From a virus: a DNA stretch of 26,318 nt. Of the stretch, positions 6,366 through 17,617 are shown in pieces (positions within the stretch are counted from its first letter, which is position 1; each line of letters opens with the position of its first letter). The notes below the pieces were generated by a model, which was given only the letters and a program-made list of their open reading frames with translations, had not been told where the DNA came from and did no database searches. The position numbers and the translations under genes are program-made. The stretch is from positions 1 through 26,318 of the IMG/VR virus record IMGVR_UViG_3300020457_000082; one strand, 5' to 3'.

Positions 6366-7241
6366 ATGAAATATAATAAGAAGCACAGTAAATTAAAAAA
6401 TACTGGTATTCTTTTCGAATTACTAACGAGACAAATCACAGTCGATGTTCTCAATAATGTTGGTAATAGTAATGCTGTGAAAATATTAAAAGAGAACTTC
6501 GGTTCAAAAACAGAATTAGGTAAAGAATACGAACTATATAAAATTTTAACCGAGAAAAAATACAAAACTACTGGCCAAGCCAATATTTTGTTAGAAGCGG
6601 TAATAAAAAATCGTAGAAAGTTATCAAATCGTAAATTAGCTAACGAAAAGTACAATTTAATTAAAAGAATTAAAGAAACTTACGATACGAAAGCTTTTTT
6701 TAATACAAGAATTCCTGAATATAAACTACTTGCATCAATATATAATGTATTTGAGGGTGAATCATCAAGACAAGTAGTGGGACCAGTTGAAGAAACTGAT
6801 AGTAAAGTAACAATCATTGAAACTATCACAAAAACCAAACACTCCAGTAAAAAATCAAAAAGTGGTGTCAATGAAAGTCTTAAAAAAGAAGATACTGATT
6901 TAAGATTACTTACTTATCAGTTATTAGTAGATAAATTCAACGAAAAATACAGCAATCTAAACGAAAATCAAAAGAATTTGTTGAAAGAATACATCAACAA
7001 TATATCAAACACTAATTCTTTGAGAGAGTTCATAGATACTGAAGTTATAAAAGTTAAAAGAGTATTAAAATCACACTTGAAAAAAGTAGATGATAAACTT
7101 ACTAAAATTAAATTAACGGAAGCTATTAATCACACCAAAGATGCAACAGGCGGTTCGGTTGTAAAAGATAACCATGTTGTTTCCTTGATGAGATACTATG
7201 AATTAGTCAAGGAGTTAGATAATGTCCACGAAAATAAGTAA
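6366..7241 (+). CDS. Conserved-looking hypothetical head-region protein
   Basis: A 291-residue, Lys- and Asn-rich, mostly helical protein starting MKYNKKHSKLKNTGILFELL. A TTG immediately precedes the ATG at 6366; the ATG, with ACGGAG about 7 nt upstream, is the better start. I do not recognise a named family. It lies between portal and prohead protease, where T4-like phages encode prohead core components (gp67, gp68), so a role in the core or in head assembly is a reasonable inference. It overlaps the next gene by 20 nt, which suggests translational coupling. No enzymatic motif is visible. Confidence 0.7.
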   Translation: MKYNKKHSKLKNTGILFELLTRQITVDVLNNVGNSNAVKILKENFGSKTELGKEYELYKILTEKKYKTTGQANILLEAVIKNRRKLSNRKLANEKYNLIKRIKETYDTKAFFNTRIPEYKLLASIYNVFEGESSRQVVGPVEETDSKVTIIETITKTKHSSKKSKSGVNESLKKEDTDLRLLTYQLLVDKFNEKYSNLNENQKNLLKEYINNISNTNSLREFIDTEVIKVKRVLKSHLKKVDDKLTKIKLTEAINHTKDATGGSVVKDNHVVSLMRYYELVKELDNVHENK

Positions 7242-8091
7242 AAAAAGATTTATTGAAATCTTAAAAAAGTTGATTCGTCGTGAAATCGATGAAGCATCTA
7301 CTTCTGTAAATGTACCAGGATATATGACACCACATGCATTTAGTGGTAAAGGTAAAATGGATAGAAGAGATTCAGTTGCCAGTGGAAGTGGATATGAAAA
7401 GATTGATGAAGTAAAATTTGCTGTAACTGTTGATATGGGCCAATTAGGTCAAGGTAAAGTTCTTGTAGATGCAGGTTCAAAAGGACAAGCAAAAACCCAA
7501 GTTGCTAAAAAATTAAAACAAGGTTTAAAAGGAATCATAAGTGTATCTCGTGTACAACCATCACTTGGTAAACAAGTAGATAAAAAGATTGAAACTATAA
7601 CTGTAGATGAGGCAGTTGACCCTAAAGTAAAAAAACAAGCTGCTTCATTACTTAAACGATACACAAACAATTGGAAAAAATTAGAAAAAGAAACTGAAAT
7701 GATGATGAAGTTTGCTAAAAAGAATAAAGCAACTGAAATGATGATGAACTTTGAAGAAGTTTTGAAGAAATTAAAAGGTAGTGTGTGGCAGAATATTAGT
7801 TACCAAGTTAAAGAACCAATGGATGATTATTTTTATGAAAGTATAAATGAGGGTAAGTATCACGATTGGAGAAATGATGAATCATTAACACCAAGACAAA
7901 AAATTGGTAGAAGTATTCGTGAAGTTAAAAATTCATTAAACCAATTGAGTAAGATGATTGATTTTAATGTTCGTTTAAAAAATGAATTAAGTGTTGATTC
8001 TTCATCTTATTGGAAAACAACACATAAAGCACTTAATAACATATCAGAACGATTAGTTAAATTAGCTAACAAAGTAGGGAAATTACAATGA
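7222..8091 (+). CDS. Probable head/core-associated protein
   Basis: A 289-residue basic, helical protein with AGGAG 7 nt before its ATG. The N-terminus, ending REIDEAS, contains I22-D23-E24 before A25, which fits the (I/L)xE|A cleavage rule of T4 gp21, so the first 24 residues may be a propeptide. A Pro/Gly segment VPGYMTPHAFSGKGK follows at 31-45. Residues 125-200 repeat the pattern TEMMM and are helical. The C-terminal 80 residues, from KYHDWRNDES, look like a separate helical domain. It overlaps the genes on both sides (20 nt and 4 nt). The role is inferred from position among head genes. Confidence 0.65.
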   Translation: MSTKISKKRFIEILKKLIRREIDEASTSVNVPGYMTPHAFSGKGKMDRRDSVASGSGYEKIDEVKFAVTVDMGQLGQGKVLVDAGSKGQAKTQVAKKLKQGLKGIISVSRVQPSLGKQVDKKIETITVDEAVDPKVKKQAASLLKRYTNNWKKLEKETEMMMKFAKKNKATEMMMNFEEVLKKLKGSVWQNISYQVKEPMDDYFYESINEGKYHDWRNDESLTPRQKIGRSIREVKNSLNQLSKMIDFNVRLKNELSVDSSSYWKTTHKALNNISERLVKLANKVGKLQ

Positions 8092-8552
8092 ACGATAAAT
8101 ACTTAAAAGAATCAATTGATATATTAAACAGAAAATTTGGTGACCCATTACCTACTCTCGAAGATACTATGAAATGGTACAAACAAAAAAATGAGGGTGG
8201 GCCAGGTAGTGGTAGACCAGCTAAACCAGGTGGTGCAAAGGATATCGATAATAAAATGAGTAAAGCGGTAGATGATGCAAATGCTAGATTGGATGCGGCT
8301 GAGAAAGAATTAAAGAAAAAGAAAATGAAAAAAGAGGGGCCAGATGATGTAAGGTTTGCAAGAAGAGCTTTATCTAAGATTGCAAAACATGAGGGTGCTT
8401 TGAGAAAAGCAATGTTTGATTTAGAACAGGCCTTCCTAAGAGACCCAAGAACTGAAAACAGAAAACTGGCTAAGGATATAAAGAAGATTTACAAAGAGGG
8501 TGTTACAAAGTTTATGAGAGAAGCAGTACAAATGATTAAGAGGATGAAGTAA
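8088..8552 (+). CDS. Small helical protein with GGPGSGRP motif
   Basis: A 154-residue basic protein that starts within the previous stop (ATGA overlap) and ends 1 nt before the protease gene. Residues 37-44 read GGPGSGRP, a Gly/Pro motif often seen in phage head-maturation and portal-associated proteins; a close variant occurs in the portal's C-terminal tail. Residues 55-154 are helical and strongly Lys-rich, typical of a protein packed near DNA or in the prohead core. It may be a core or protease-partner protein, comparable in position to T4 gp68, but homology is not shown. Confidence 0.6.
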   Translation: MNDKYLKESIDILNRKFGDPLPTLEDTMKWYKQKNEGGPGSGRPAKPGGAKDIDNKMSKAVDDANARLDAAEKELKKKKMKKEGPDDVRFARRALSKIAKHEGALRKAMFDLEQAFLRDPRTENRKLAKDIKKIYKEGVTKFMREAVQMIKRMK

Positions 8553-8553
8553 G

Positions 8554-9174
8554 ATGAAACAATTATTAGTAGATTATATTCCATTTGAAATATCATCTGA
8601 ACAAATCAACGAATCCATGAAAGAAAACAATGGTAAGTTAGTTGTTAAAGGTGTATTACAAAGAGCAAATGCAAAGAATCAAAATGGAAGAGTATATCCA
8701 ATGGAGATTCTACAAAGAGAAGCAAAAAATTATAATGATGGATTTATAAAACAGAAAAGAGCTTTGGGTGAGTTAGACCATCCTGATTCTTCTGTAGTGA
8801 ACTTACAAAATGTATCTCACAATATTACAGAAATGCATTGGGAAGGCGATAACTTATTAGGAACTTGTGAAATCTTAACTACACCAAGTGGTAATATCTT
8901 GAGAGAATTATTTAAGAATGGTATCAAGTTAGGTATCAGTTCTCGTGGTATGGGTTCAGTTGAGGCTATACAAGAAGATGATGGTAAACCAGCAATGAAA
9001 GTTGGAAAAGATTTTGAATTGATTGCTTTTGATTTTGTTTCCAATCCATCTACACATGGTGCTTTTATGCATCCATTACAAGAGGGTGTTGATAATACTC
9101 AAACACAAGGAAGAACTTGTGGTTCGTATTGTAAAGCAGAAGATATAATTAATAAAATTATAAGAGGAGAGTAA
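8554..9174 (+). CDS. 21: Prohead core protease (gp21-like)
   Basis: This is the serine protease assembled inside the prohead that cleaves scaffold, major capsid and internal proteins after (I/L)xE sequences, clearing space for DNA. The fold family is that of T4 gp21 and herpesvirus assemblins. The catalytic His is expected in GELDHPDSS (H76) and the Ser in LGISSRGMGS (S129 or S130). ANAKNQNGRVYP (39-49) and AFDFVSNPSTHGAF (158-171) are also typical of the family. At 206 residues it is close to T4 gp21 (212). A short Cys-containing tail (CGSYC, 179-183) is unusual. Predicted cleavage sites in the products of 11466, 12455, 12787, 13316, 14746 and 15965 make these its probable substrates. Confidence 0.93.
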   Translation: MKQLLVDYIPFEISSEQINESMKENNGKLVVKGVLQRANAKNQNGRVYPMEILQREAKNYNDGFIKQKRALGELDHPDSSVVNLQNVSHNITEMHWEGDNLLGTCEILTTPSGNILRELFKNGIKLGISSRGMGSVEAIQEDDGKPAMKVGKDFELIAFDFVSNPSTHGAFMHPLQEGVDNTQTQGRTCGSYCKAEDIINKIIRGE

Positions 9175-9175
9175 G

Positions 9176-9388
9176 ATGCCAGGTTTAGAAGATAAACAAT
9201 TACCTAACATTCCAAAAAACAATGATAGTTTAGGTGGTGATTCAGGTTTAGAAAATTTAGTACCAAGCCAACCATTTGTTAAAAGTGGTAATGATTCATT
9301 AGGTGGGCCAAGTGGTTTAGATAAACTACCAACACCAACCAATGGTTTACCAAATAGACAATTCAATGGTGATGGTTTAGCAAAGTAA
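9176..9388 (+). CDS. Small Gly/Asn/Pro-rich protein with internal repeat
   Basis: A 70-residue low-complexity protein with AGGAG ahead of its ATG. It contains two copies of NDSLGGxSGL[E/D]xL, at 16-28 and 39-51, separated by a Pro-rich linker. It has no predicted globular core. It lies 1 nt after the protease gene and its stop overlaps the next start (TAATG), so it is translated as part of this head operon. It may be a flexible decoration or linker peptide; the function is unknown. Confidence 0.65.
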   Translation: MPGLEDKQLPNIPKNNDSLGGDSGLENLVPSQPFVKSGNDSLGGPSGLDKLPTPTNGLPNRQFNGDGLAK

Positions 9389-11469
9389 TGCCTGCTAAAT
9401 CTAAAGCTCAACAAAGATTTATGGGATTAGTACATGCCTTGAATAAAGGTGATGTAGACCCAAGTAAAGTATCCAAGAAAGTAAAAGATGTTGCTAAAGA
9501 TATGGATAAATCAGATGTAAAAAAATATGCATCTACAAAACATAAAGGGAAACCAGAGAAAGTGAAACAAGAAGATATAAACTTAGAAACACTTATCAAA
9601 GAGAATCCAGCCGCTATTGCTGCCGCAGTTCAAACTATGCAAAAGATGAAAGCGAAGAATCCTAAAACAGGTAGAGTTAACAAACTTTCTACTGCTCTCG
9701 GTGATAAACAACATCCAGCACACAAAAAAGCTAAAAGTGTTTTTTCAAGAATTGTAGATAAGTTTAAGAAAAAGAAAGATGGGCCTAATCCAACAAGTAA
9801 AGATTCACCTTTAGTTCCAAAGAAACAATCTAAAGCAGATGTAGATTTTTACAAAAAACAATTTACAGGTGAAACAATTAATAAATTAAAAGAAATGATT
9901 CGTGTAGAACTTGAGGGATGTGGTTACACTACTTCAGCGGTTGACCCAAATATTAAATTAAAATCACCAGGTGGAACAGGTGAGGAAGATAAAGATTTAA
10001 AAGAGGGTATGAAAACTGCTGGTGATGTTCCTTTTGGTAATTTTAATTTCAATACAGCTGGAAAAAACTCAATTAAAAAGTTAGCAAAAAGATATGGATT
10101 GAAAGTTAAAAAGATTACTAAAGGCCCTAACTACGAACCAACAGCAGTATTACAAGGTGATGAGAAAAAATTAATGAAGTTCCTTATGAGTAAAGATTAT
10201 GGTGTTGATAAATTTAGTGCTGAAGATATGATAGAGGGTAAACTACATGAGGGTGAAAAAGAAAAGATAGAACAATTACTAATCAAGTATGGTAACACAC
10301 CTGAAGATGCTAAACAAATGGTTAGAAAAACCTATGATTATATAAAGAAGGCCTATCGAAATGCAAATGCTTCAAAGAAAGCAGAAATCATGTCATCATT
10401 GATGAAGTTCGAAACAACAGAACAATTCAGTAATTTAGTTGAAAAGTGTTGGAAAGGATACATGATTCATCCAAAAAGAAAAACTAAAAAGTTATTTGGT
10501 AAAACATATCCTAATTGTATAAAGAAAGAAAATATATCTTCTAAGAGTATTATGAGTGAAATGGATTACAGAGGATTCATTAAATATATGAATGATTTCT
10601 ATGGGCCAAAAGGAGTTTATCCTGATAAAAAGAAAAGAACTTTGAAGATGAAAGATATTGGATTAGCATACTCAGTATTATTAAAGAAGAAACCAAATTT
10701 TGAAATAGGATATGATTCTACAGATAGAGAGATGTTAAGAGATATTTTAATCAAGATGAAAAAACTTGACCCTGATTATACAAAAAAAGAATATATGAAT
10801 ACTATGGCTAAGAAGAGAAAAAGAAAAGGGTTGGCACCAATAGAGGGTTTTGCTAGTGCGGCACAAAGAAGAGCGGCATTTGCAAGTGGATATAAAGCCA
10901 AAGGTAAAAAGAAAAAGAAAGAAGTAGCAGAAGCAGTTAAAGTATTAAAATTTACAAAGGTGAAAGATAACACATTAGAAAAACATCTAAAGTTTATTAG
11001 TAAAAAAGTTGGAGCAGAATTATCTAAAATTGATGGTGGATTCAGAGTTGATGCCGATGGAGATATCAGAAAATTAACTTCGGTGGTTGATTATGTATTT
11101 GATAAATCAATCAAGAAAGGCCTTATGAAAGGTGGTGGGATGTCTCAAATCAATTTAGTAAAAGAAGCAATGGATAAAAGACAAGGTGCCGAAACTCTAA
11201 AACAATTAGGTGGTAATAGATTTATTATGATGACAGGAGCAAAACACTTCGGTGTAGGGCCTAATGGAATGAGTTTCAAGATTGGTAAAAACTCTAAAAG
11301 AGTAAACCATGTTACAATAGATTATGATAGAGGTAGAGATTTATATAATATGAAATTTGATTGGGTAACCATCAAGGGTATTAAAAACAAGAAAACACTA
11401 AAAGGAATCTATGCAGACCAGTTACAAGATATGTTCACAAGATATACAGGTATGTACACAAGCTTATGA
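9388..11469 (+). CDS. Multi-module basic protein with DUF3008-type N-terminus
   Basis: A 693-residue, very Lys-rich protein that looks assembled from several modules. Residues 1-58, starting MPAKSKAQQRFMG and ending KHKGKPEKV, match the small-protein family DUF3008. Residues 66-72 (LETLIKE) resemble the capsid-targeting motif of nearby genes. Residues 354-384 (CWKGY...PNCIKKE) form a short Cys-bounded segment. Residues 484-503 are an Ala-rich basic segment with AAQRRAAFASGY. Residues 600-693, from AETLKQLGGNRFIMMTGAK to YTGMYTSL, form a compact C-terminal domain of a type I associate with marine phages. It follows protease and precedes the cargo-like genes. A DNA-associated prohead core or internal protein is a reasonable inference; no enzyme motif is seen. 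Confidence 0.75.
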   Translation: MPAKSKAQQRFMGLVHALNKGDVDPSKVSKKVKDVAKDMDKSDVKKYASTKHKGKPEKVKQEDINLETLIKENPAAIAAAVQTMQKMKAKNPKTGRVNKLSTALGDKQHPAHKKAKSVFSRIVDKFKKKKDGPNPTSKDSPLVPKKQSKADVDFYKKQFTGETINKLKEMIRVELEGCGYTTSAVDPNIKLKSPGGTGEEDKDLKEGMKTAGDVPFGNFNFNTAGKNSIKKLAKRYGLKVKKITKGPNYEPTAVLQGDEKKLMKFLMSKDYGVDKFSAEDMIEGKLHEGEKEKIEQLLIKYGNTPEDAKQMVRKTYDYIKKAYRNANASKKAEIMSSLMKFETTEQFSNLVEKCWKGYMIHPKRKTKKLFGKTYPNCIKKENISSKSIMSEMDYRGFIKYMNDFYGPKGVYPDKKKRTLKMKDIGLAYSVLLKKKPNFEIGYDSTDREMLRDILIKMKKLDPDYTKKEYMNTMAKKRKRKGLAPIEGFASAAQRRAAFASGYKAKGKKKKKEVAEAVKVLKFTKVKDNTLEKHLKFISKKVGAELSKIDGGFRVDADGDIRKLTSVVDYVFDKSIKKGLMKGGGMSQINLVKEAMDKRQGAETLKQLGGNRFIMMTGAKHFGVGPNGMSFKIGKNSKRVNHVTIDYDRGRDLYNMKFDWVTIKGIKNKKTLKGIYADQLQDMFTRYTGMYTSL

Positions 11470-12455
11470 TAAAATTAACAGACATAATAAAAGAATCAAA
11501 GGTATCTTATTTAACAGAGGCTTTTAGAAGTAAACTATTAAGAAAATTTTCTATGAATAATAGGGGTTCTTTGGATAGAGATTTATATACTTACTTGGCA
11601 AAACAAGGTTTACAGGCAAGTAAGATTGAAGATAATCAAATTACAAAACAATCCACATTACCAAGAAAAGGTGTTGCAATTGCTGTTACAGGTAAGAAAG
11701 TAACTCTTCATGCAAAAGGTAATAGATATTGGGAATCTTCTTTAGAAATAGATAAAGGAACAGTCGTATGTGTATTCAAAGATGGTAAATCACTATGGTA
11801 TACAAAATCTTGGAGAAGTAAAGATATCAATGTAAAAAATCCTACAGAGTGGGGTGCTGAAGATATGAAAACATTTGGTTTGAATAAATATGGATGGCAA
11901 AGTCCTAAGGCAGTAAAAGGTATTGATGGTATTCAATTCTATACAATCTCATTGGATGAAGATATGCCTTACATGGGTGCTCAAAAAATTAGAAAACTAA
12001 GACAAGATATAAAATATGGTGCGGCTTCATTTAGAGATGATAAGTATTTCAGAGATGAAAACAAGAGAAGATATGATGATGCAATAGAAAATCTATATGA
12101 TGACCCAGCAAAAGTAAAAGCAAAAATTAAGAAAGCAAAAGATTATACTGATAAATTAATACAAGGTTTGATTGGTGGTAAACCAAATGCAGAATCTAAA
12201 AAGTTGATGAATAGTTTGGATAGGTCATTTGCTAATGATGCACACAAAGCGATATCGTTATTAAGTAGGATAGCAGATGCTATGGATAGATTATATCAAA
12301 AGGTTAGAACATATCAAGAAGAGTTACATTACGATAACCAATATGAAAAAGAACATGGTGAGAAGAAATCATACAGAAGTGCACCAAGATATGGTAAAGA
12401 GATTGCTCAGTATGTTAATTACATTCTTACAAATAAATTTGGGAGTGTATACTAA
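11466..12455 (+). CDS. Candidate capsid-targeted internal protein, 329 aa
   Basis: The N-terminus MIKLTDIIKE places Glu at residue 10 after I-x, the same layout as the capsid-targeting peptide of T4 internal proteins (MKTYQEFIAE), which gp21 removes. A second possible cleavage site, L16-T-E18|A, follows. The rest is a soluble, mixed-charge protein: a probable beta-rich part at about 60-170 (VAIAVTGKKVTLHAKGNRYW and following) and a helical C-terminal half rich in Lys and Tyr. Its ATG overlaps the preceding stop codon (ATGA) and has no clear ribosome binding site, so translation is probably coupled. By inference it is loaded into the prohead and trimmed by gp21; the activity of the mature part is unknown. 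Confidence 0.65.
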   Translation: MIKLTDIIKESKVSYLTEAFRSKLLRKFSMNNRGSLDRDLYTYLAKQGLQASKIEDNQITKQSTLPRKGVAIAVTGKKVTLHAKGNRYWESSLEIDKGTVVCVFKDGKSLWYTKSWRSKDINVKNPTEWGAEDMKTFGLNKYGWQSPKAVKGIDGIQFYTISLDEDMPYMGAQKIRKLRQDIKYGAASFRDDKYFRDENKRRYDDAIENLYDDPAKVKAKIKKAKDYTDKLIQGLIGGKPNAESKKLMNSLDRSFANDAHKAISLLSRIADAMDRLYQKVRTYQEELHYDNQYEKEHGEKKSYRSAPRYGKEIAQYVNYILTNKFGSVY

Positions 12456-12475
12456 TGATTAAGTTAAAAGATTTA
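12454..12475 (+). repeat. Direct repeat at gene start, copy 1
   Basis: A 22-nt stretch from one base before the ATG of the 12455 gene. It is identical to 12786-12807 and shares its first 18 nt with 13315-13332. It encodes the start of the shared N-terminal peptide MIKLKDL. The identity covers synonymous positions, so it exceeds what protein conservation needs. Confidence 0.8.
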
Positions 12476-12790
12476 ATAAAAGAAGAAGAGTGTCATTGTG
12501 GGGATTCATGTTGTTCCCCTAAAGAACAAGTGATAAAAGAAATGAAAGTATCTGCAGACTTAACTAAAATTAGTAATATGTATGGTGCTACTAAATCGAG
12601 AGGTACAACAAGTAAAACTCCAGTTACACCAAAGGCATATAATATGTTGAGTAAGGATGTAAAAGTTTTGAAAATGGCAGTAAAACAATTAGAGAATGCT
12701 GTAAGAAAACAAAACGATGTAGAACTAAAAGATGATATCGTATACTTAGTATTGAAAGCACACGAAGCTTTAGAGAACTTTCAAAAATGA
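12455..12790 (+). CDS. Candidate capsid-targeted internal protein with Cys cluster
   Basis: A 111-residue protein beginning MIKLKDLIKE, the capsid-targeting-like peptide with Glu at residue 10. Directly after the expected gp21 cut comes CHCGDSCC (13-20), four Cys and one His in eight residues, which could bind metal or form disulfides. The last 50 residues are helical and align by eye with the end of the next gene's product (16 of 50 identical), so the two are tandem paralogues. The ATG overlaps the upstream stop (TAATG) and GGGAG precedes it. The function of the mature protein is unknown. Confidence 0.65.
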   Translation: MIKLKDLIKEEECHCGDSCCSPKEQVIKEMKVSADLTKISNMYGATKSRGTTSKTPVTPKAYNMLSKDVKVLKMAVKQLENAVRKQNDVELKDDIVYLVLKAHEALENFQK

Positions 12791-12807
12791 TTAAGTTAAA
12801 AGATTTA
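12782..12807 (+). repeat. Direct repeat at gene junction, copy 2
   Basis: This copy matches 12454-12475 over its last 22 nt and matches 13311-13332 over its first 22 nt. It spans the end of one gene (codons for Q-K and the stop) and the start of the next (M-I-K-L-K-D). It links the other two copies into one repeat family. Confidence 0.8.
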
Positions 12808-13032
12808 TTAAGCGAGAGAAAAGTTGAACTTTATTTCAGAGATGATTTAAAGAACAAACCAATATCAAGAAGTGGATACTCAGAGGTAAATGGACAAATG
12901 AGACACTTAGAGTTTGGTATAAAAGATTTGAAAAAAAGTATTAGAACACAAAATGATAAACTAACCATTGATAACATTCAATACATTATATTGAAAGCGT
13001 TTCAAATGAAAGAAGTTTTGGAGAAGAAGTAA
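12787..13032 (+). CDS. Candidate capsid-targeted internal protein, 81 aa
   Basis: An 81-residue protein beginning MIKLKDLLSE, with L-x-E ending at residue 10. The remaining 71 residues contain a helical region (32-81) related to the C-terminal region of the preceding gene's product; shared positions include IRxQND and YxxLKA, with D-x-I between them. It is therefore probably a duplicate that lost or never had the Cys cluster. Its start overlaps the preceding stop (ATGA) and its stop overlaps the next start (TAATG). After cleavage the mature protein would be about 8 kDa, similar in scale to small T4 internal proteins. Confidence 0.6.
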   Translation: MIKLKDLLSERKVELYFRDDLKNKPISRSGYSEVNGQMRHLEFGIKDLKKSIRTQNDKLTIDNIQYIILKAFQMKEVLEKK

Positions 13033-13319
13033 TGGGTAAAAAAACAATGACACATCAAATGTGGAGCCAATGGAAAGATTTTAGATTAGATGAGATAGAA
13101 GACCATGAGGGTAAGATGGCAAAATCTCAATTAGAAAGAACCATGAAGTATGCCAAAATGATTTATAAAATTATTGATAATGTTGATAAAGGTGGTGATG
13201 GTGGAGTTCAGTTTCCATCATGGGTTCAGTCTAAAATGACTAAATCTATGGATTACCTACAATCAGTTTACAATTATTTAGATGGTAAAGATGGGTTAGA
13301 TGATAAGTTCCAAAAATGA
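13032..13319 (+). CDS. Small helical protein in the internal-protein cluster
   Basis: A 95-residue protein. The N-terminus differs from its neighbours (MGKKTMTHQMWSQWKDFRLDE), but L19-D-E21 is again a possible gp21 site, so the leader may be a longer version of the targeting peptide. Residues 50-95 (from NVDKGGDGGVQFPSWVQSKMTKSMDYL) look like a compact helical domain of a type I associate with marine phage proteins. It ends KFQK, and its junction with the next gene repeats the DNA of the 12787 junction. GGAG lies about 10 nt before the ATG. The function is unknown. Confidence 0.6.
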   Translation: MGKKTMTHQMWSQWKDFRLDEIEDHEGKMAKSQLERTMKYAKMIYKIIDNVDKGGDGGVQFPSWVQSKMTKSMDYLQSVYNYLDGKDGLDDKFQK

Positions 13320-13332
13320 TTAAGTTAAAAGA
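13311..13332 (+). repeat. Direct repeat at gene junction, copy 3
   Basis: Identical over 22 nt to 12782-12803. Like copy 2, it spans the end of a gene (codons Q-K then stop) and the ATGA-overlapped start of the next (M-I-K-L-K). Confidence 0.8.
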
Positions 13333-13672
13333 AATATTAAAGGAAGAGGGTTCTTATGTACCAGGTTCAATTAAAACCACACATAAGATGAGTGTTCCAT
13401 CATTAGGATATTCAACACCAGAATCTAAAAAGTTTGTAGAAAAAGATATACAAACGATGGGTAAGATTTTTAATAAAGCATCTCAACAATCCATTAAGAT
13501 AATGATGGATGGTGTTAAAGGTGGAAGATATGATGCTATGGATATTATTCAAAGTATCAAATCAGGTCCCGCTGGTGATACAAGTAAAGGTATCAGAAGT
13601 ATGTTGATTGTTTTATGGAGTAAAGTAGATAAAAGATTTCGTAGTTATCTTCGTGGTAAAAAACGAAGATGA
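13316..13672 (+). CDS. Candidate capsid-targeted internal protein, 118 aa, basic
   Basis: A 118-residue protein beginning MIKLKEILKE, with Glu at residue 10. After the predicted cleavage comes EGSYVPGSIKTTHKMSVPS, then a helical region and a strongly basic C-terminus (RFRSYLRGKKRR), which would suit binding to packaged DNA. Its start overlaps the preceding stop (ATGA). It ends 2 nt before a candidate promoter, so it closes a long overlapping gene string that begins around 6366. The mature function is unknown. Confidence 0.62.
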   Translation: MIKLKEILKEEGSYVPGSIKTTHKMSVPSLGYSTPESKKFVEKDIQTMGKIFNKASQQSIKIMMDGVKGGRYDAMDIIQSIKSGPAGDTSKGIRSMLIVLWSKVDKRFRSYLRGKKRR

Positions 13673-13674
13673 TG

Positions 13675-13682
13675 ATATTTAT
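13675..13682 (+). promoter_or_regulatory. Candidate promoter element (ATATTTAT)
   Basis: ATATTTAT preceded by G, starting 2 nt after the stop codon at 13672 and 21 nt before the ATG at 13704. The gene downstream has AAGGAGA as its ribosome binding site. The position at the end of a chain of overlapping genes fits an internal late promoter. Confidence 0.45.
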
Positions 13683-13703
13683 TAGGGAATAAGGAGACAC
13701 AAA

Positions 13704-14363
13704 ATGGCAAAATTAAAAGATTTAGTTAAAGAGAGTTTTTCACTCGTAGGTGGAGTTGTATCAACACCCGTAATAGGTACAGCTACAAATACAGGTTTGA
13801 CAGATATCGTAGAAGATTTATATGGTCAAAAGACTGGAAAAGTTTCTGCTAAAGAAGTACAAGAAGCAATTAGAGAATTTTCAAGTTACTCTAAAGTATT
13901 ACAAAAAGAAGAGAATCTTCAGAAGATTGCTGAAAGATTATCTAAAATTGCAACTAATGCAAAAACATATACAGTAAGTGAAACTGAAGATTGGTTTGAT
14001 AAAGTTACTGTAAATCGTAATATGAAAGAATTAACAAACCTATCAAAATCATTTGGTAAGATTGCACAAGAATCACAAGCACTACAACAAAGATTAGGTG
14101 GATTATATGAAGATATGGGACACATCTTGGGTAGATATTATGAAATAGATGATAATGGTGATTCACAAGAAGATGAAAAAATCAAAGCTGGTTTAGAAGA
14201 ACCTAAAGGTCACGATATTAAAGAGGGTGATTATGAAGAGTTCTTCCAAAAGGCTATGAAAAAATTTGGTATAAAATCACCAGCTGAATTAGATGATGAG
14301 AAGAAAAAAGAATTCTTTAATTTTGTAGATAAAAACTACAAAGGTAAAAACGAAGAAGATTAA
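13704..14363 (+). CDS. Candidate capsid-targeted prohead/internal protein, 219 aa
   Basis: A 219-residue helical protein beginning MAKLKDLVKE, the fifth member of the group with Glu at residue 10, although Val replaces I/L at residue 8. Residues 14-30 are a Gly/Val/Thr-rich stretch, residues 45-150 are long helices with coiled-coil character, and 150-175 is acidic. The last 45 residues, from EEFFQKAMKKFGIKSPAEL to FVDKNYKG, form a module of a type I associate with head-region proteins of marine T4-like phages. AAGGAG precedes the ATG, and a candidate promoter lies 21 nt upstream. It lies two genes before the scaffold, so a prohead-core role is likely. Confidence 0.65.
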   Translation: MAKLKDLVKESFSLVGGVVSTPVIGTATNTGLTDIVEDLYGQKTGKVSAKEVQEAIREFSSYSKVLQKEENLQKIAERLSKIATNAKTYTVSETEDWFDKVTVNRNMKELTNLSKSFGKIAQESQALQQRLGGLYEDMGHILGRYYEIDDNGDSQEDEKIKAGLEEPKGHDIKEGDYEEFFQKAMKKFGIKSPAELDDEKKKEFFNFVDKNYKGKNEED

Positions 14364-14375
14364 GTAGAGGTAAAC

Positions 14376-14585
14376 TTGAGTTTAAAAGTTGAAGTCCGAA
14401 AAGGACAATCTGTAGAAAAAGCAATTTCTATTTTTAAGAAGAAAGTAAAACAAAGTGGTATTTTAATGGAATATCGTGATAGACAATTCTATGTAAAACC
14501 ATCAGCTATCAAACGAGAAAAAAGAAATAAAGCTATTTTACGAAATAAATACAAGATTTTAAAAGAAAAAGAACAAGATAAGTAA
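14376..14585 (+). CDS. rpsU: Ribosomal protein bS21, phage-encoded
   Basis: A 69-residue protein that matches bacterial bS21: VEVRKGQSVEKAI (4-16), then FKKKVKQSGIL (20-30), then RQFYVKPSAIKREKR (36-50), followed by a basic tail. bS21 sits on the small subunit near the anti-Shine-Dalgarno end of 16S rRNA and helps start translation. The start is TTG, set by the family alignment and by GAGG about 5 nt upstream; the first in-frame ATG would cut away half the protein. It lies between a head gene and the scaffold and is followed by a terminator-like repeat. It has no capsid-targeting peptide, so it is expected to act in the cell. Phage-encoded bS21 is already known; this placement in the head operon is informative. 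Confidence 0.93.
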   Translation: MSLKVEVRKGQSVEKAISIFKKKVKQSGILMEYRDRQFYVKPSAIKREKRNKAILRNKYKILKEKEQDK

Positions 14586-14745: not shown

Positions 14746-15948
14746 ATGGATGATTTACTAAAAGAAGCCATAGCAGATGCAAAAGCAGTTCGTGAAACAG
14801 CTTTACAGAATGCAAAGATGGCACTTGAAGAAGCGTTCACACCTAAATTGAAATCAATGTTAGCTCAGAAGATTCAACAAGAGATTGAAGATGAAGAGAT
14901 GGAAGATGAAGTCGAAGATGAAGGCTACGGCGGAGAAGGCATGGATGATGAAGAACATGAACCAGGCCATGAAAAAGAAGTAGCTGAAGTTGAAGACGAG
15001 GATGAAGACAAAGTAGATGAAGTCGAAGACGAAGATGAAGAAATGAAATCTGAAGTTGAAGACGAAGATGAGGACAAAATGGATGAAATCGAAGACGAAG
15101 TCGAAGATGAAGTTCATGATGATGAAATGTCTATGAAGAAAGAAGTCGAAGACGAAGACGAAGACAAGATGGATGAAGTCGAAGACGAAGACGAAGACAT
15201 GGATGAAGAACTTGACCTCGAATCTATACTTGCTGAGTTAGAAGCAGAAGTTAATGAAGTAGAAGATGAAGAAGATTCTATGGATGAAATTGACGATAAA
15301 GAAGATAAAGAAGAAATGGATGAAAATGATGTTTCTTCAGAAATCGGAAAAGCTGATAACAAAGTAGCTGATAAAGCTGGTGATTCATCTGAAACAGGTG
15401 CTCAGGGACCAGAAGGCGAAGGTAAAGACGAACCTGCTGGAAAAGAACTTGATGACCACGAAGTGGTTAAAGAGGGTGAGGACAAAGAAGATGACATGGA
15501 TGAAGATATCGATTTAGAAGAAGTCTTAAAAGCATTAACTGAAGAAGATGAAGATGAAGATGAGACTAAAGATGAAATTGCTAAACTTCAAGGTGAAATT
15601 AAAGAGCACAGAGATGTTGTAAAATATCTTCGTGAGAAATTAAACGAAGTTAATTTATTGAATGCTAAACTCTTATTCTCAAACAAACTATTCAGAGCGT
15701 TTGGTTTAAGTAATGAACAGAAATTAAAAGTTGTTGAAACTTTTGATAGAACTAAAAACTTAAGAGAAATCAAGTTGGTTTACTCAACACTTGCAGAATC
15801 TTTCAAAGGTACTAAAGTGAAACCAGCTAGTGAAACTAAAGGTTCAAGTTCAAAACCTGTTGCATCTACTAAACCAGCTAACGAAGAAGTTATTTCTGAG
15901 GGTGCTGAGTTAAAGAACAGATTCAAGAAATTAGCTAACATACTATAA
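14746..15948 (+). CDS. 22: Prohead core scaffold protein (gp22-like)
   Basis: The main component of the inner core on which the capsid assembles; it is later digested by gp21. The N-terminus MDDLLKEAIADAKAVRETAL and helices to about 48 lead into an extremely acidic stretch (48-195). That stretch holds three exact copies of VEDEDEDK (82-89, 104-111, 134-141). Two related segments, LDLESILAELE (156-166) and IDLEEVLKALTE (255-266), may be core-binding helices. The C-terminal part, NLLNAKLLFSNKLFRAFG (303-320) through LVYSTLAESF (344-353), matches gp22 of T4-like phages. At 400 residues it is longer than T4 gp22 (269), mainly through the acidic insert. LxE sites are plentiful. AGGAG precedes the ATG, and gp23 follows 16 nt after the stop. 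Confidence 0.88.
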   Translation: MDDLLKEAIADAKAVRETALQNAKMALEEAFTPKLKSMLAQKIQQEIEDEEMEDEVEDEGYGGEGMDDEEHEPGHEKEVAEVEDEDEDKVDEVEDEDEEMKSEVEDEDEDKMDEIEDEVEDEVHDDEMSMKKEVEDEDEDKMDEVEDEDEDMDEELDLESILAELEAEVNEVEDEEDSMDEIDDKEDKEEMDENDVSSEIGKADNKVADKAGDSSETGAQGPEGEGKDEPAGKELDDHEVVKEGEDKEDDMDEDIDLEEVLKALTEEDEDEDETKDEIAKLQGEIKEHRDVVKYLREKLNEVNLLNAKLLFSNKLFRAFGLSNEQKLKVVETFDRTKNLREIKLVYSTLAESFKGTKVKPASETKGSSSKPVASTKPANEEVISEGAELKNRFKKLANIL

Positions 15949-15964: not shown

Positions 15965-17617
15965 ATGAGTGACAAATTCAAATCAGTAGAGTCTTTAATG
16001 GATGGATATAATCCACAAAGACAACTACTCGAACAAACTCGTAAGTTAGTCAAGAAATGGGAACCAACAGGCCTTTTAGAAGGTATGGACAAAGAACATG
16101 AAGTAAACGGAATGGCTGTACTTCTTGAAAACCAAGCCCGTCAGTTAATTGATGAGGCTTCAAGAACAGGTACATCTGCAAACTCTGAAGAGTGGTCAGG
16201 TGTTGCACTTCCATTAGTTCGTAGAATCTTTGGTGAGTTGGCAGCACAGGAATTCGTTTCTGTTCAGCCAATGAACTTACCATCTGGTCTTATTTTCTAT
16301 CTTGACTTTAAATACGGAACTGCCCAAACAGATGCACACACTAACAACTCAGATGTATTTGGTAATACTTCAGGTTCAGGTGATGCTTCTGGTGGTTTGT
16401 ATGGTGCTGGTAAATTCGGCTACTCAATAAACGATGTTGATTCTTCAACATTAGATATTGGTGCAGCTGTAGGTTCATCAGCGTTTACAACTGCCTCTGT
16501 TTCATGGCAAGACGTTAATTTTGAACCAGACCTTTCTGCTTCAGCCGCTTTAGGACACGAAGCTGATAATGGTCTTGTTAAAATCACCGTATCAAACGAT
16601 GCTATTGCATCTTTTGATGAAGACGGTGTTAGAGCTTTCTCAGTAAGTGGTTCTGGTATAGATGCTTTCTATCCAGCACATACTTCTGTTAATGCCGCTA
16701 AAACTCAGGTATCATTTATTGCACAGAAATCAAAAGCTGGTAACCCTGATAAGATTGTTGTATCTTTCCATAAGAAAGCCGCAAACAACTTTACAAGAGG
16801 TGACTTTGAAGCTTCTGCAGCTGCTATAGATGCAAATCCTGAAACTGATATCGACATTCCAGAATTAGATATTGCGTTAAAGAGTATTCCTATCATAGCG
16901 AAAACTCGTAAGTTAAAAGCTGTCTGGACTCCAGAACTTGCTCAAGACTTAAATGCTTATCATTCTGTGGATGCTGAAGCTGAACTAACAGCTCTTCTTT
17001 CTGAGTACATCTCAATGGAAATCGATTTAGAAATCCTTGATATGTTATATGCAGGTGCTACTGCTAAGACAGAAAGATGGTCAGCTAGAGTTGGATTCGA
17101 ATATGATTCCGCTACTACATTGTTTGCACAATCAAGTGGTGAATCAAATGCTTACACAAAAGGTGAGTGGTTCCAAACTCTTGGAAACAAAATACAAGCA
17201 GTTTCTAATGCAATCCATCAGAAAACTCTAAGAGGTGGTGCTAACTTCTTGGTCGTAAGTCCAGAAACAGCAACTATCATCGAGAGTATTCCTGGATATG
17301 CCGCAGATACTACTGGTGAAGCAACTGAGAAATCATTTGCAATGGGTGTACAAAAAGTAGGTGCTCTTAACAACAGATATACTGTTTACAAGAACCCTTA
17401 TGCATTGGATAATGTAATACTAGCAGGTTTCAGAGGAAGTAACTTCTTAGAAACAGGTGCTGTGTATGCTCCATATGTACCACTTATCATGACACCATTA
17501 GTGTACGACCCTAAGAACTTCACACCAAGAAAAGGCGTAATGACTCGTTATGCTAAGAAGATGGTTAGAAGTGAGTTCTATGGTAAGATTGTCGTAGCTG
17601 ATGTAAACTATGTGTAA
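15965..17617 (+). CDS. 23: Major capsid protein (gp23-like)
   Basis: The hexamer-forming shell protein. KKWEPTGLLEG (30-40) corresponds to KWKPLLEG of T4 gp23, and L61-I-D-E64|A65 corresponds to T4's FLTE|A processing site, so the mature protein probably starts at A65. VQPMNLPSGLIF (100-111) and KTRKLKAVWTPELAQDLNAYHSVDAEAEL (313-341) are strongly conserved in gp23. The middle (about 120-300) is variable and Ser/Ala/Gly-rich, as expected for surface loops. The 550-residue length is close to T4's 521. Codons ending in C are commoner than in flanking genes, fitting high expression. GGGAG precedes the ATG, and a strong terminator follows. Confidence 0.96.
   Translation: MSDKFKSVESLMDGYNPQRQLLEQTRKLVKKWEPTGLLEGMDKEHEVNGMAVLLENQARQLIDEASRTGTSANSEEWSGVALPLVRRIFGELAAQEFVSVQPMNLPSGLIFYLDFKYGTAQTDAHTNNSDVFGNTSGSGDASGGLYGAGKFGYSINDVDSSTLDIGAAVGSSAFTTASVSWQDVNFEPDLSASAALGHEADNGLVKITVSNDAIASFDEDGVRAFSVSGSGIDAFYPAHTSVNAAKTQVSFIAQKSKAGNPDKIVVSFHKKAANNFTRGDFEASAAAIDANPETDIDIPELDIALKSIPIIAKTRKLKAVWTPELAQDLNAYHSVDAEAELTALLSEYISMEIDLEILDMLYAGATAKTERWSARVGFEYDSATTLFAQSSGESNAYTKGEWFQTLGNKIQAVSNAIHQKTLRGGANFLVVSPETATIIESIPGYAADTTGEATEKSFAMGVQKVGALNNRYTVYKNPYALDNVILAGFRGSNFLETGAVYAPYVPLIMTPLVYDPKNFTPRKGVMTRYAKKMVRSEFYGKIVVADVNYV

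Follow-up and report, generated by a model that had tools for sequence, protein, structure and literature searches.

The window analysed here is the full IMG/VR virus record IMGVR_UViG_3300020457_000082, with a length of 26,318 bases. Its head region contains a bank of small genes (11466-14363), five of which encode proteins with a ten-residue leader, called here type T1, that ends in glutamate. An initial annotation of the window had proposed that the bank is a modular cargo system of unrelated proteins. A modular set of leader-tagged cargo is also the best-fitting reading of the present analysis, as judged from sequence: the leader occurs on unrelated bodies in many phages, it is associated with S77 prohead proteases, and its conserved positions match those of T4. 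The leader ends sharply at the glutamate and is exchanged there, enzyme domains are found among the bodies, and module borders in longer proteins lie at the same motif. A probability of about 0.8 is given to a greatly expanded form of the T4 internal-protein logic, in which the proteins would be targeted to the capsid, trimmed by the prohead protease and probably injected.

In the proposed mechanism, a short N-terminal leader helix would dock each protein on the prohead core, and the S77 protease would cut after [I/L/V]xE, so that the mature protein is set free within the head. On this view the leader has become a general tag for packaging that passes from one protein to another regardless of relatedness, and it works beside polyproteins whose modules are joined at cut sites of the same kind. 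After injection together with the DNA, most of the cargo would probably act on the host, like T4 IPI-III and Alt, and a minority may serve head assembly. Many T4-related environmental phages seem to load dozens of unrelated proteins by means of a few cleavable tags or of polyproteins joined at cut sites. A broader proposal, that exchangeable leaders and [ILV]xE-cut polyproteins constitute a general protein-delivery code loading dozens of unrelated enzymes and inhibitors for injection in a large group of these phages, is held with somewhat better than even confidence.

The leader on unrelated proteins

The five starts and leaders of the initial annotation were recovered unchanged: MIKLTDIIKE (11466), MIKLKDLIKE (12455), MIKLKDLLSE (12787), MIKLKEILKE (13316) and MAKLKDLVKE (13704). 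As putative leaders of the capsid-targeting type, the five agree with the (I/L)xE cleavage rule of T4 gp21, one of them having Val at P3, a residue also allowed in the major capsid protein (MCP) sites of relatives. The bodies at 12455 and 12787 are related, as had been described (BLASTP E 2e-09, 30% over 56 residues), and the remaining bodies have no such relation. The glutamate said to stand always at residue 10 does so in the five window proteins; across relatives the statement proved too strict, Glu10 being present in 77 of 88 distinct MxKLx proteins.

These 88 relatives form a set not selected on the site, in which residues 6-10 were unrestricted. The motif [ILVM]xE is found at residues 8-10 in 76 of them and at 7-9 in 4 more. 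Information amounts to 3.39 bits at Glu10, 2.6-3.0 at positions 7-8 and 1.6 at position 9 (P2), and it does not exceed 1.2 from residue 11 onward; the P1' position favours N, S or A. The conserved residues L4, [LI]7, [LIV]8 and E10 fall in an ungapped alignment to the leader of T4 internal protein III, although L4 is part of the search pattern and only positions 7, 8 and 10 are independent in this comparison. The T4 leader, MKTYQEFIAE, relies chiefly on residues 4 and 7 for targeting and on 8 and 10 for processing (PMC9026906). The leader is conserved as protein, not as DNA. Among 199 leaders, 179 distinct 30-base DNA versions were counted, and the use of K, E and I codons is near that of the bodies, Leu TTA and Asp GAC being used more than in the bodies. 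No overall enrichment of [IL]xE was detected in residues 11-50 of leader proteins, and second sites are therefore claimed only where homology supports them.

Chance does not account for the leader. In 80 relatives collected with the protease as query, 1035 genes were called in the respective loci together with the window, and a looser leader pattern was found on 106 of them. Shuffling residues 2-31 of the same genes gave a mean of 0.54 matches and a maximum of 3 in 200 trials; at this rate, five matches in the 27 genes of the window have P ~3e-12. Only 3 matches occurred among 4767 non-gene open reading frames (ORFs), and 2 of these resemble real genes omitted by the simple gene caller. A degenerate DNA version of the pattern gave at least 120 matches in viral_contigs, compared with 27 in the whole collection for the same residues in scrambled order. 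On 32 contigs, a slightly looser pattern matched 74 times and its reverse not once.

The bodies behind the leader are highly diverse, which agrees with the earlier suggestion that otherwise unrelated proteins carry it. In scans covering part of one collection, 253 leader proteins fell into 97 body clusters (68 singletons), and 96 body representatives showed a mean column identity of 5%. Family profiles revealed NUDIX, Fe/Mn superoxide dismutase, Mom-like, RNase_T exonuclease, HD, GNAT, cell-wall hydrolase (Hydrolase_2) and zeta-toxin/AAA kinase domains, each on one protein, as well as several PHROG enzyme families, these enzyme-domain matches being singletons in a list of mostly unassigned bodies. 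The leader of the superoxide dismutase, MKLKKLIEQ, is one of the weaker matches. The HD-domain body was found under two leader types. On the minus strand of L107, two neighbours (12435-12962 and 13257-13853) are identical over their first 23 residues and then wholly different, one continuing into an HD domain and the other into a YYHGTT protein, which looks like a recent duplication of the leader. ADP-ribosyltransferase (ART) cargo was considered because of YHFTS, YHGTT and LYHYT motifs; with no Pfam match and no convincing sequence match in the PDB, the proteins are not assigned this activity. One such candidate, used as a query for relatives, retrieved only itself.

The leader is linked to the S77 protease. 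This enzyme was detected on 36 of 79 leader contigs from an unbiased scan, compared with 1 (above the cut-off) or 2 of 27 control contigs chosen by the scrambled pattern (Fisher P 4e-5 and 3e-4, respectively). Leader genes share the strand of the protease everywhere but in one 369-kb genome. With respect to position, 21 of 49 are downstream of the protease at a distance of up to 7 kb, and the others lie 11-66 kb upstream or farther away. In the L412 contig (G202), the S77 frame at 7456-7896 is broken by a single TAA, representing either a sequence error or a broken gene.

Leader exchange and polyproteins

Homologues without the T1 leader had been named beforehand by the initial annotation as evidence against its proposal. 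Such homologues exist, and most of them carry a different N-terminus with the same site at the same place; since they keep the boundary site, they support the proposed mechanism. For 67 non-redundant homologues with a different N-terminus, the point aligning to the first residue after the leader glutamate was inspected, and [ILVM]xE was found within 1 residue of it in 35, whereas random positions gave a mean of 5.5 and a maximum of 15 in 1000 trials. Control motifs did not behave in this way: [ILVM]xD was found in 1, [ILVM]xK in 6 (null 7.2) and [AGST]xE in 3 (null 2.4). Examples are LLE|AGVPNHL and RLDE|AGVPNHL, LIME|DRDSDYEGQK and QLNE|DREDDFDGQK, LITE|GTRW and IINE|GTRW, and ILKE|EGSYVPGS of window gene 13316 and LLEE|DGMYVPGS. 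Such retention of one site at one residue, at the end of different N-termini, is what a cleavage site should show, and it is difficult to account for in any other way.

These phages have at least five types of N-terminus, T1 among them. The other leader types, like the leader of gene 13032 and the polyprotein-like ORF 9388 described below, go beyond the initial annotation. Further types recognized from the swaps are ...WKDFRLxE (window 13032), NDKYLxE (window 8088), ...LRxIIREExxxL(x)E, related to window 7222, and NFDLKKFLVENKLTxNSxLLxE. Besides T1, at least two of these families, MKITKRQLRRIIREE... and MDNFDLKKFLVENKLT..., are each carried by more than 60 unrelated bodies. The last two types listed were scanned separately. 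A scan with the NFDLKKFLVENKLT leader gave 91 proteins in 66 body clusters, with S77 on 22 of 50 contigs. The IIREE-type scan gave 89 proteins in 61 body clusters, likewise with S77 on 22 of 50 contigs, including all those of at least 180 kb. Four matches to the MDNFDLKKFLVE-type pattern are present in Flavobacterium phage vB_FspM_immuto_2-6A. Automatic leader typing overlaps, some MIKLKELIKEE proteins being counted as IIREE, and swap counts per type are approximate; the 35/67 result is independent of it.

Motifs of the same kind join the modules of longer proteins. The 693-residue ORF at 9388-11469 (plus strand) resembles a polyprotein, with a DUF3008 N-terminus followed by modules that are set apart by [ILVM]xE sites, located after residues 72 (9603), 206 (10005), 352 (10443), 391 (10560), 515 (10932) and 593 (11166). 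Homology supports boundaries at TLIKE|NPAAIA (72), SNLVE|KCWKGY (352), IMSE|MDYRGF (391), EVAE|AVKVLK (515) and LVKE|AMDKRQ (593), and L146 has the CWKGY module as an independent protein with a T1 leader (LISE|KCWKGY). Family matches in this ORF are PF11450 (residues 3-59), phrog_7799 (395-459) and phrog_9437 (602-693). Several homologous modules occur within long ORFs, where they are preceded by ESVNE|, NVNE| or SVDE|. The density of S[VI][ND]E per 1000 residues is 1.16 in head-cluster genes compared with 0.31 elsewhere in the same loci, and control motifs give 0.02-0.15.

Comparison with T4 and rival explanations

Capsid-targeting leaders on unrelated proteins are already known from T4 and its close relatives. 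No more than a handful of T4 proteins are known to carry a tag of this kind; those studied are restriction-enzyme inhibitors and a modifier of the host polymerase. At least ten internal proteins of T-even phages have only the leader in common, and the injected T4 Ip1-3 inhibit different GmrSD restriction enzymes (PMC12373910), which provides a direct precedent for the role proposed here. Like the bank, T4 IPI-III combine unrelated bodies with a ten-residue N-terminal leader that ends in (I/L)xE and has its key positions at 4, 7, 8 and 10. In the phages analysed here, by contrast, the leader sequence is another one, far more bodies (about 100) carry it, and many adjoin the prohead protease. They also differ in having several interchangeable leader families, second sites predicted to release mini-modules, and polyproteins. 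T4 Alt is likewise an enzyme delivered by a short cleaved leader, and it is also cut at the C-terminus (PMC9026906); unlike this ADP-ribosyltransferase, ART-like cargo is here only suggested by the YHFTS and YHGTT motifs. In phiKZ and SPN3US, inner-head proteins are trimmed by the prohead protease and ejected (PMC5694885), but their propeptides mostly comprise at least 100 residues and are not known to be exchanged between unrelated bodies. The bodies of the bank proteins gave no PHROG or Pfam match to the T4 internal protein or Alt families. In the open literature, with subscription journals and preprints outside the search, no leader-based cargo banks or prohead polyproteins were found in marine T4-like phages. 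As far as searched, the novelty lies in how large the cargo set is, in the presence of several interchangeable leader families in T4-like phages from the environment, and in cargo taking the form of polyproteins.

The bank proteins might instead be components of the prohead core (scaffold), which the protease destroys or trims to make room for DNA entry, so that few or none of them would be delivered. The T4 proteins gp67, gp68 and gp22 offer the model for this explanation. They lie between portal, protease and MCP and possess many gp21-type sites; the bank occupies a comparable place between protease, scaffold and MCP, several proteins in these clusters have many internal sites like gp22, and bank gene 6 is kept in most relatives. 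No PHROG match to the gp67/gp68 family was obtained. In contrast with these T4 proteins, the modules described here are many, unrelated and in part enzymatic, with a leader common by sequence. More than 90 unrelated bodies, gained and lost between close relatives, would be surprising in a core; superoxide dismutase, NUDIX, Mom, exonuclease and kinase domains are ill-suited to a structural role, and leaders also occur far from the head genes. A core function for the bank as a whole is accordingly regarded as unlikely, but some of its members could be parts of the prohead core rather than injected cargo.

Other meanings of the leader were considered with less conviction. A different N-terminal signal, such as a translation-start element, a degron or an address within the infected cell, would be compatible with an AT-rich leader placed right at the start codon and with its increased use of Leu TTA and Asp GAC. 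The number of DNA versions and the ordinary use of K, E and I codons speak against it, and a translation signal would not predict that conservation ends at Glu or that unrelated leaders, and polyproteins as well, share the [ILVM]xE boundary. On the codon variation an RNA or translation element was rejected, and such signals in general are very improbable. The chance that the five proteins are diverged paralogues, with the leader as the sole conserved remnant, is smaller still. Genes 12455 and 12787 are indeed paralogous, and their leader DNA is identical over 20 bases. The same body is found, however, under different leaders, and the unrelated folds identified by profiles, above all the enzyme domains, already contradict common descent for the whole family.

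Several points weigh against the interpretation as delivered cargo. About half of the leader contigs are without a detected S77 protease. Of these, 22 were examined; they are mostly fragments, and a gp23-type capsid gene is present on 1 of 22. This contig starts ~9.5 kb before the capsid gene and has leader genes at its start, so the protease probably lies off its end. T1 leaders also occur at least 120 kb from the head genes; such an arrangement fits T4, but it shows that location by itself proves nothing. Single internal sites are weak evidence, given the shortness of the gp21 motif. The six bank proteins have no function assignment in Pfam and PHROGs, and docking, cleavage, packaging or retention in the virion, injection and action in the host are inferred by analogy with T4.

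If the cargo interpretation is correct, cargo could be found on any such genome by its leader. Among uncharacterised proteins, several hundred would be recognized as head-delivered by a ten-residue signature (253 for a single leader, in addition to two other families), probably including anti-defence factors and host-takeover enzymes. The interpretation would also account for the many unrelated small genes in the head clusters of these phages, and prohead-protease polyproteins would suggest a way of packing many small proteins.

Bank genes and the head region of the window

The head region comprises terminase (2887), portal (4468), genes 6363, 7222 and 8088, the S77 prohead protease (8554), the 693-residue ORF (9388), the bank, a ribosomal-S21-like gene (14376), an acidic scaffold-like ORF (14746) and a gp23-type MCP gene (15965). 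The bank had been placed between the protease and scaffold genes. Its location agrees with this description, except that ORF 9388 intervenes between protease and bank. The view of the bank as a leader cluster also needs a correction: gene 13032 is without the T1 leader and bears a different one (...WKDFRLDE). The bank genes, genes 7222 and 8088, the protease, the acidic ORF and the MCP gene are on the plus strand.

Bank gene 1 (11466-12455) encodes 329 residues. Behind its T1 leader (11466-11495), a second site, SYLTE|AF, is predicted after residue 18 (11519), and both E10 and E18 are invariant across 11 homologues with identities down to 34%. In L375 the same body is found under an IIREE-type leader with the boundary kept (SLLTE|TF). 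In the AlphaFold2 model, residues 1-18 have pLDDT values below 50, and this stretch ends at the second predicted site; the remainder is moderate (mean pLDDT 64, pTM 0.41), and no fold match of the model was found in the PDB. In L240, on the same contig as L013, a Met-less leader, IIKLKDVMRE, is embedded in a longer fused ORF immediately before the gene 1 body.

Bank gene 2 (12455-12790, 111 residues) has its leader at 12455-12484, followed by a Cys-rich mini-module (CHCGDSCCS...; residues 11-29, 12485-12541) and a second predicted site, VIKE|MKVSADL. Homologues have VIQE|MRVSADL and the same CxCGxxCC module. The module is also present in L046, L065, L031 and L024, and the same bodies are found with and without it. 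Flanked by the leader and a second [VI]xE site, and absent from some copies of the same bodies, it would be excised by the protease as a separate peptide. Bank gene 3 (12787-13032, 81 residues; leader 12787-12816) has a body related to that of gene 2. In L046 a 94% identical body follows ...EEVITE| in place of LLSE|.

Bank gene 4 (13032-13319, 95 residues) carries the type T2 leader MGKKTMTHQMWSQWKDFRLDE in residues 1-21 (13032-13094), with a predicted site at RLDE|I. This N-terminus also precedes homologues of the gene 5 body in L065, L066, L034 and others. Bank gene 5 (13316-13672, 118 residues; leader 13316-13345) has the predicted site ILKE|EGSYVPGS, and its homologue behind a different leader, mentioned above, is located in L065. 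A weak match to DUF7416 (E 0.0023) is under the cut-off. Bank gene 6 (13704-14363, 219 residues; leader 13704-13733) is the most conserved member, and its E10 is invariant in 14 aligned homologues. The AlphaFold2 model of its helical body is a low-confidence helical bundle, residues 1-44 also being of low confidence. The orthologue from Microcystis phage Mel-JY01 starts with another N-terminal sequence (...EVIAE|N). The last 45 residues of gene 6 (14229-14360) correspond to phrog_28651 and recur in several proteins of Vibrio, Pseudomonas and Tenacibaculum phages, some of which are annotated as DNA ligase.

Two genes between portal and protease also have leader-like N-termini. Gene 8088 (8088-8552, 154 residues) starts with the type T3 leader MNDKYLKE (8088-8111), followed by the predicted site YLKE|SIDIL and then an RKFGDPLPTL mini-module. 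Its homologues have MKLKKLLNE| or MIKLKKLxxE| ahead of the same RKFGxPLPTL module. More generally, an RKFG[ED]PLPTL mini-module is found directly after the cleavage point of several leader types, in gene 8088 and in many relatives. A sub-threshold match of this gene to an "internal head protein" family is weak (E 0.056). Gene 7222 (7222-8091, 289 residues), located upstream of it, has the N-terminus ...LKKLIRREIDE|ASTSV (residues 1-24, 7222-7293), which resembles the IIREE type, and a further predicted site, EKIDE|VKFAV. Its homologues keep ...IxE|[AV]ST. The VKFAV module reappears as the C-terminal module of gene 6 homologues after NLSE| or TVNE| (L037, L057).

The S77 gene at 8554-9174 encodes a gp21-like prohead maturation protease (PF03420, E 8.5e-28; phrog_207, 2.7e-54), which is presumed to be the processing enzyme. 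The acidic 400-residue ORF at 14746-15948 has no PHROG or family match. From its position adjoining the MCP gene and its extreme acidic composition, it is presumed to be the prohead scaffold, as a gp22 analogue. The gp23-like MCP (15965-17617; phrog_138, 2.6e-74) has a predicted maturation site, QLIDE|AS, after residue 64 (16156). At the T4 gp23 cleavage position, [ILV]xE is present in 16 of 16 distinct relatives, and the next residue is Ala in 15 of them.

Two further genes of the window deserve mention. At 12-1412, a 466-residue protein without a PHROG match contains an EKLDG motif reminiscent of nucleotidyltransferase and ligase active sites. The ribosomal-protein-S21-like gene (14376-14585; PF01165, E 7e-15) lies within the head cluster, and an S21-like gene is found at the equivalent place in Microcystis phage Mel-JY01.

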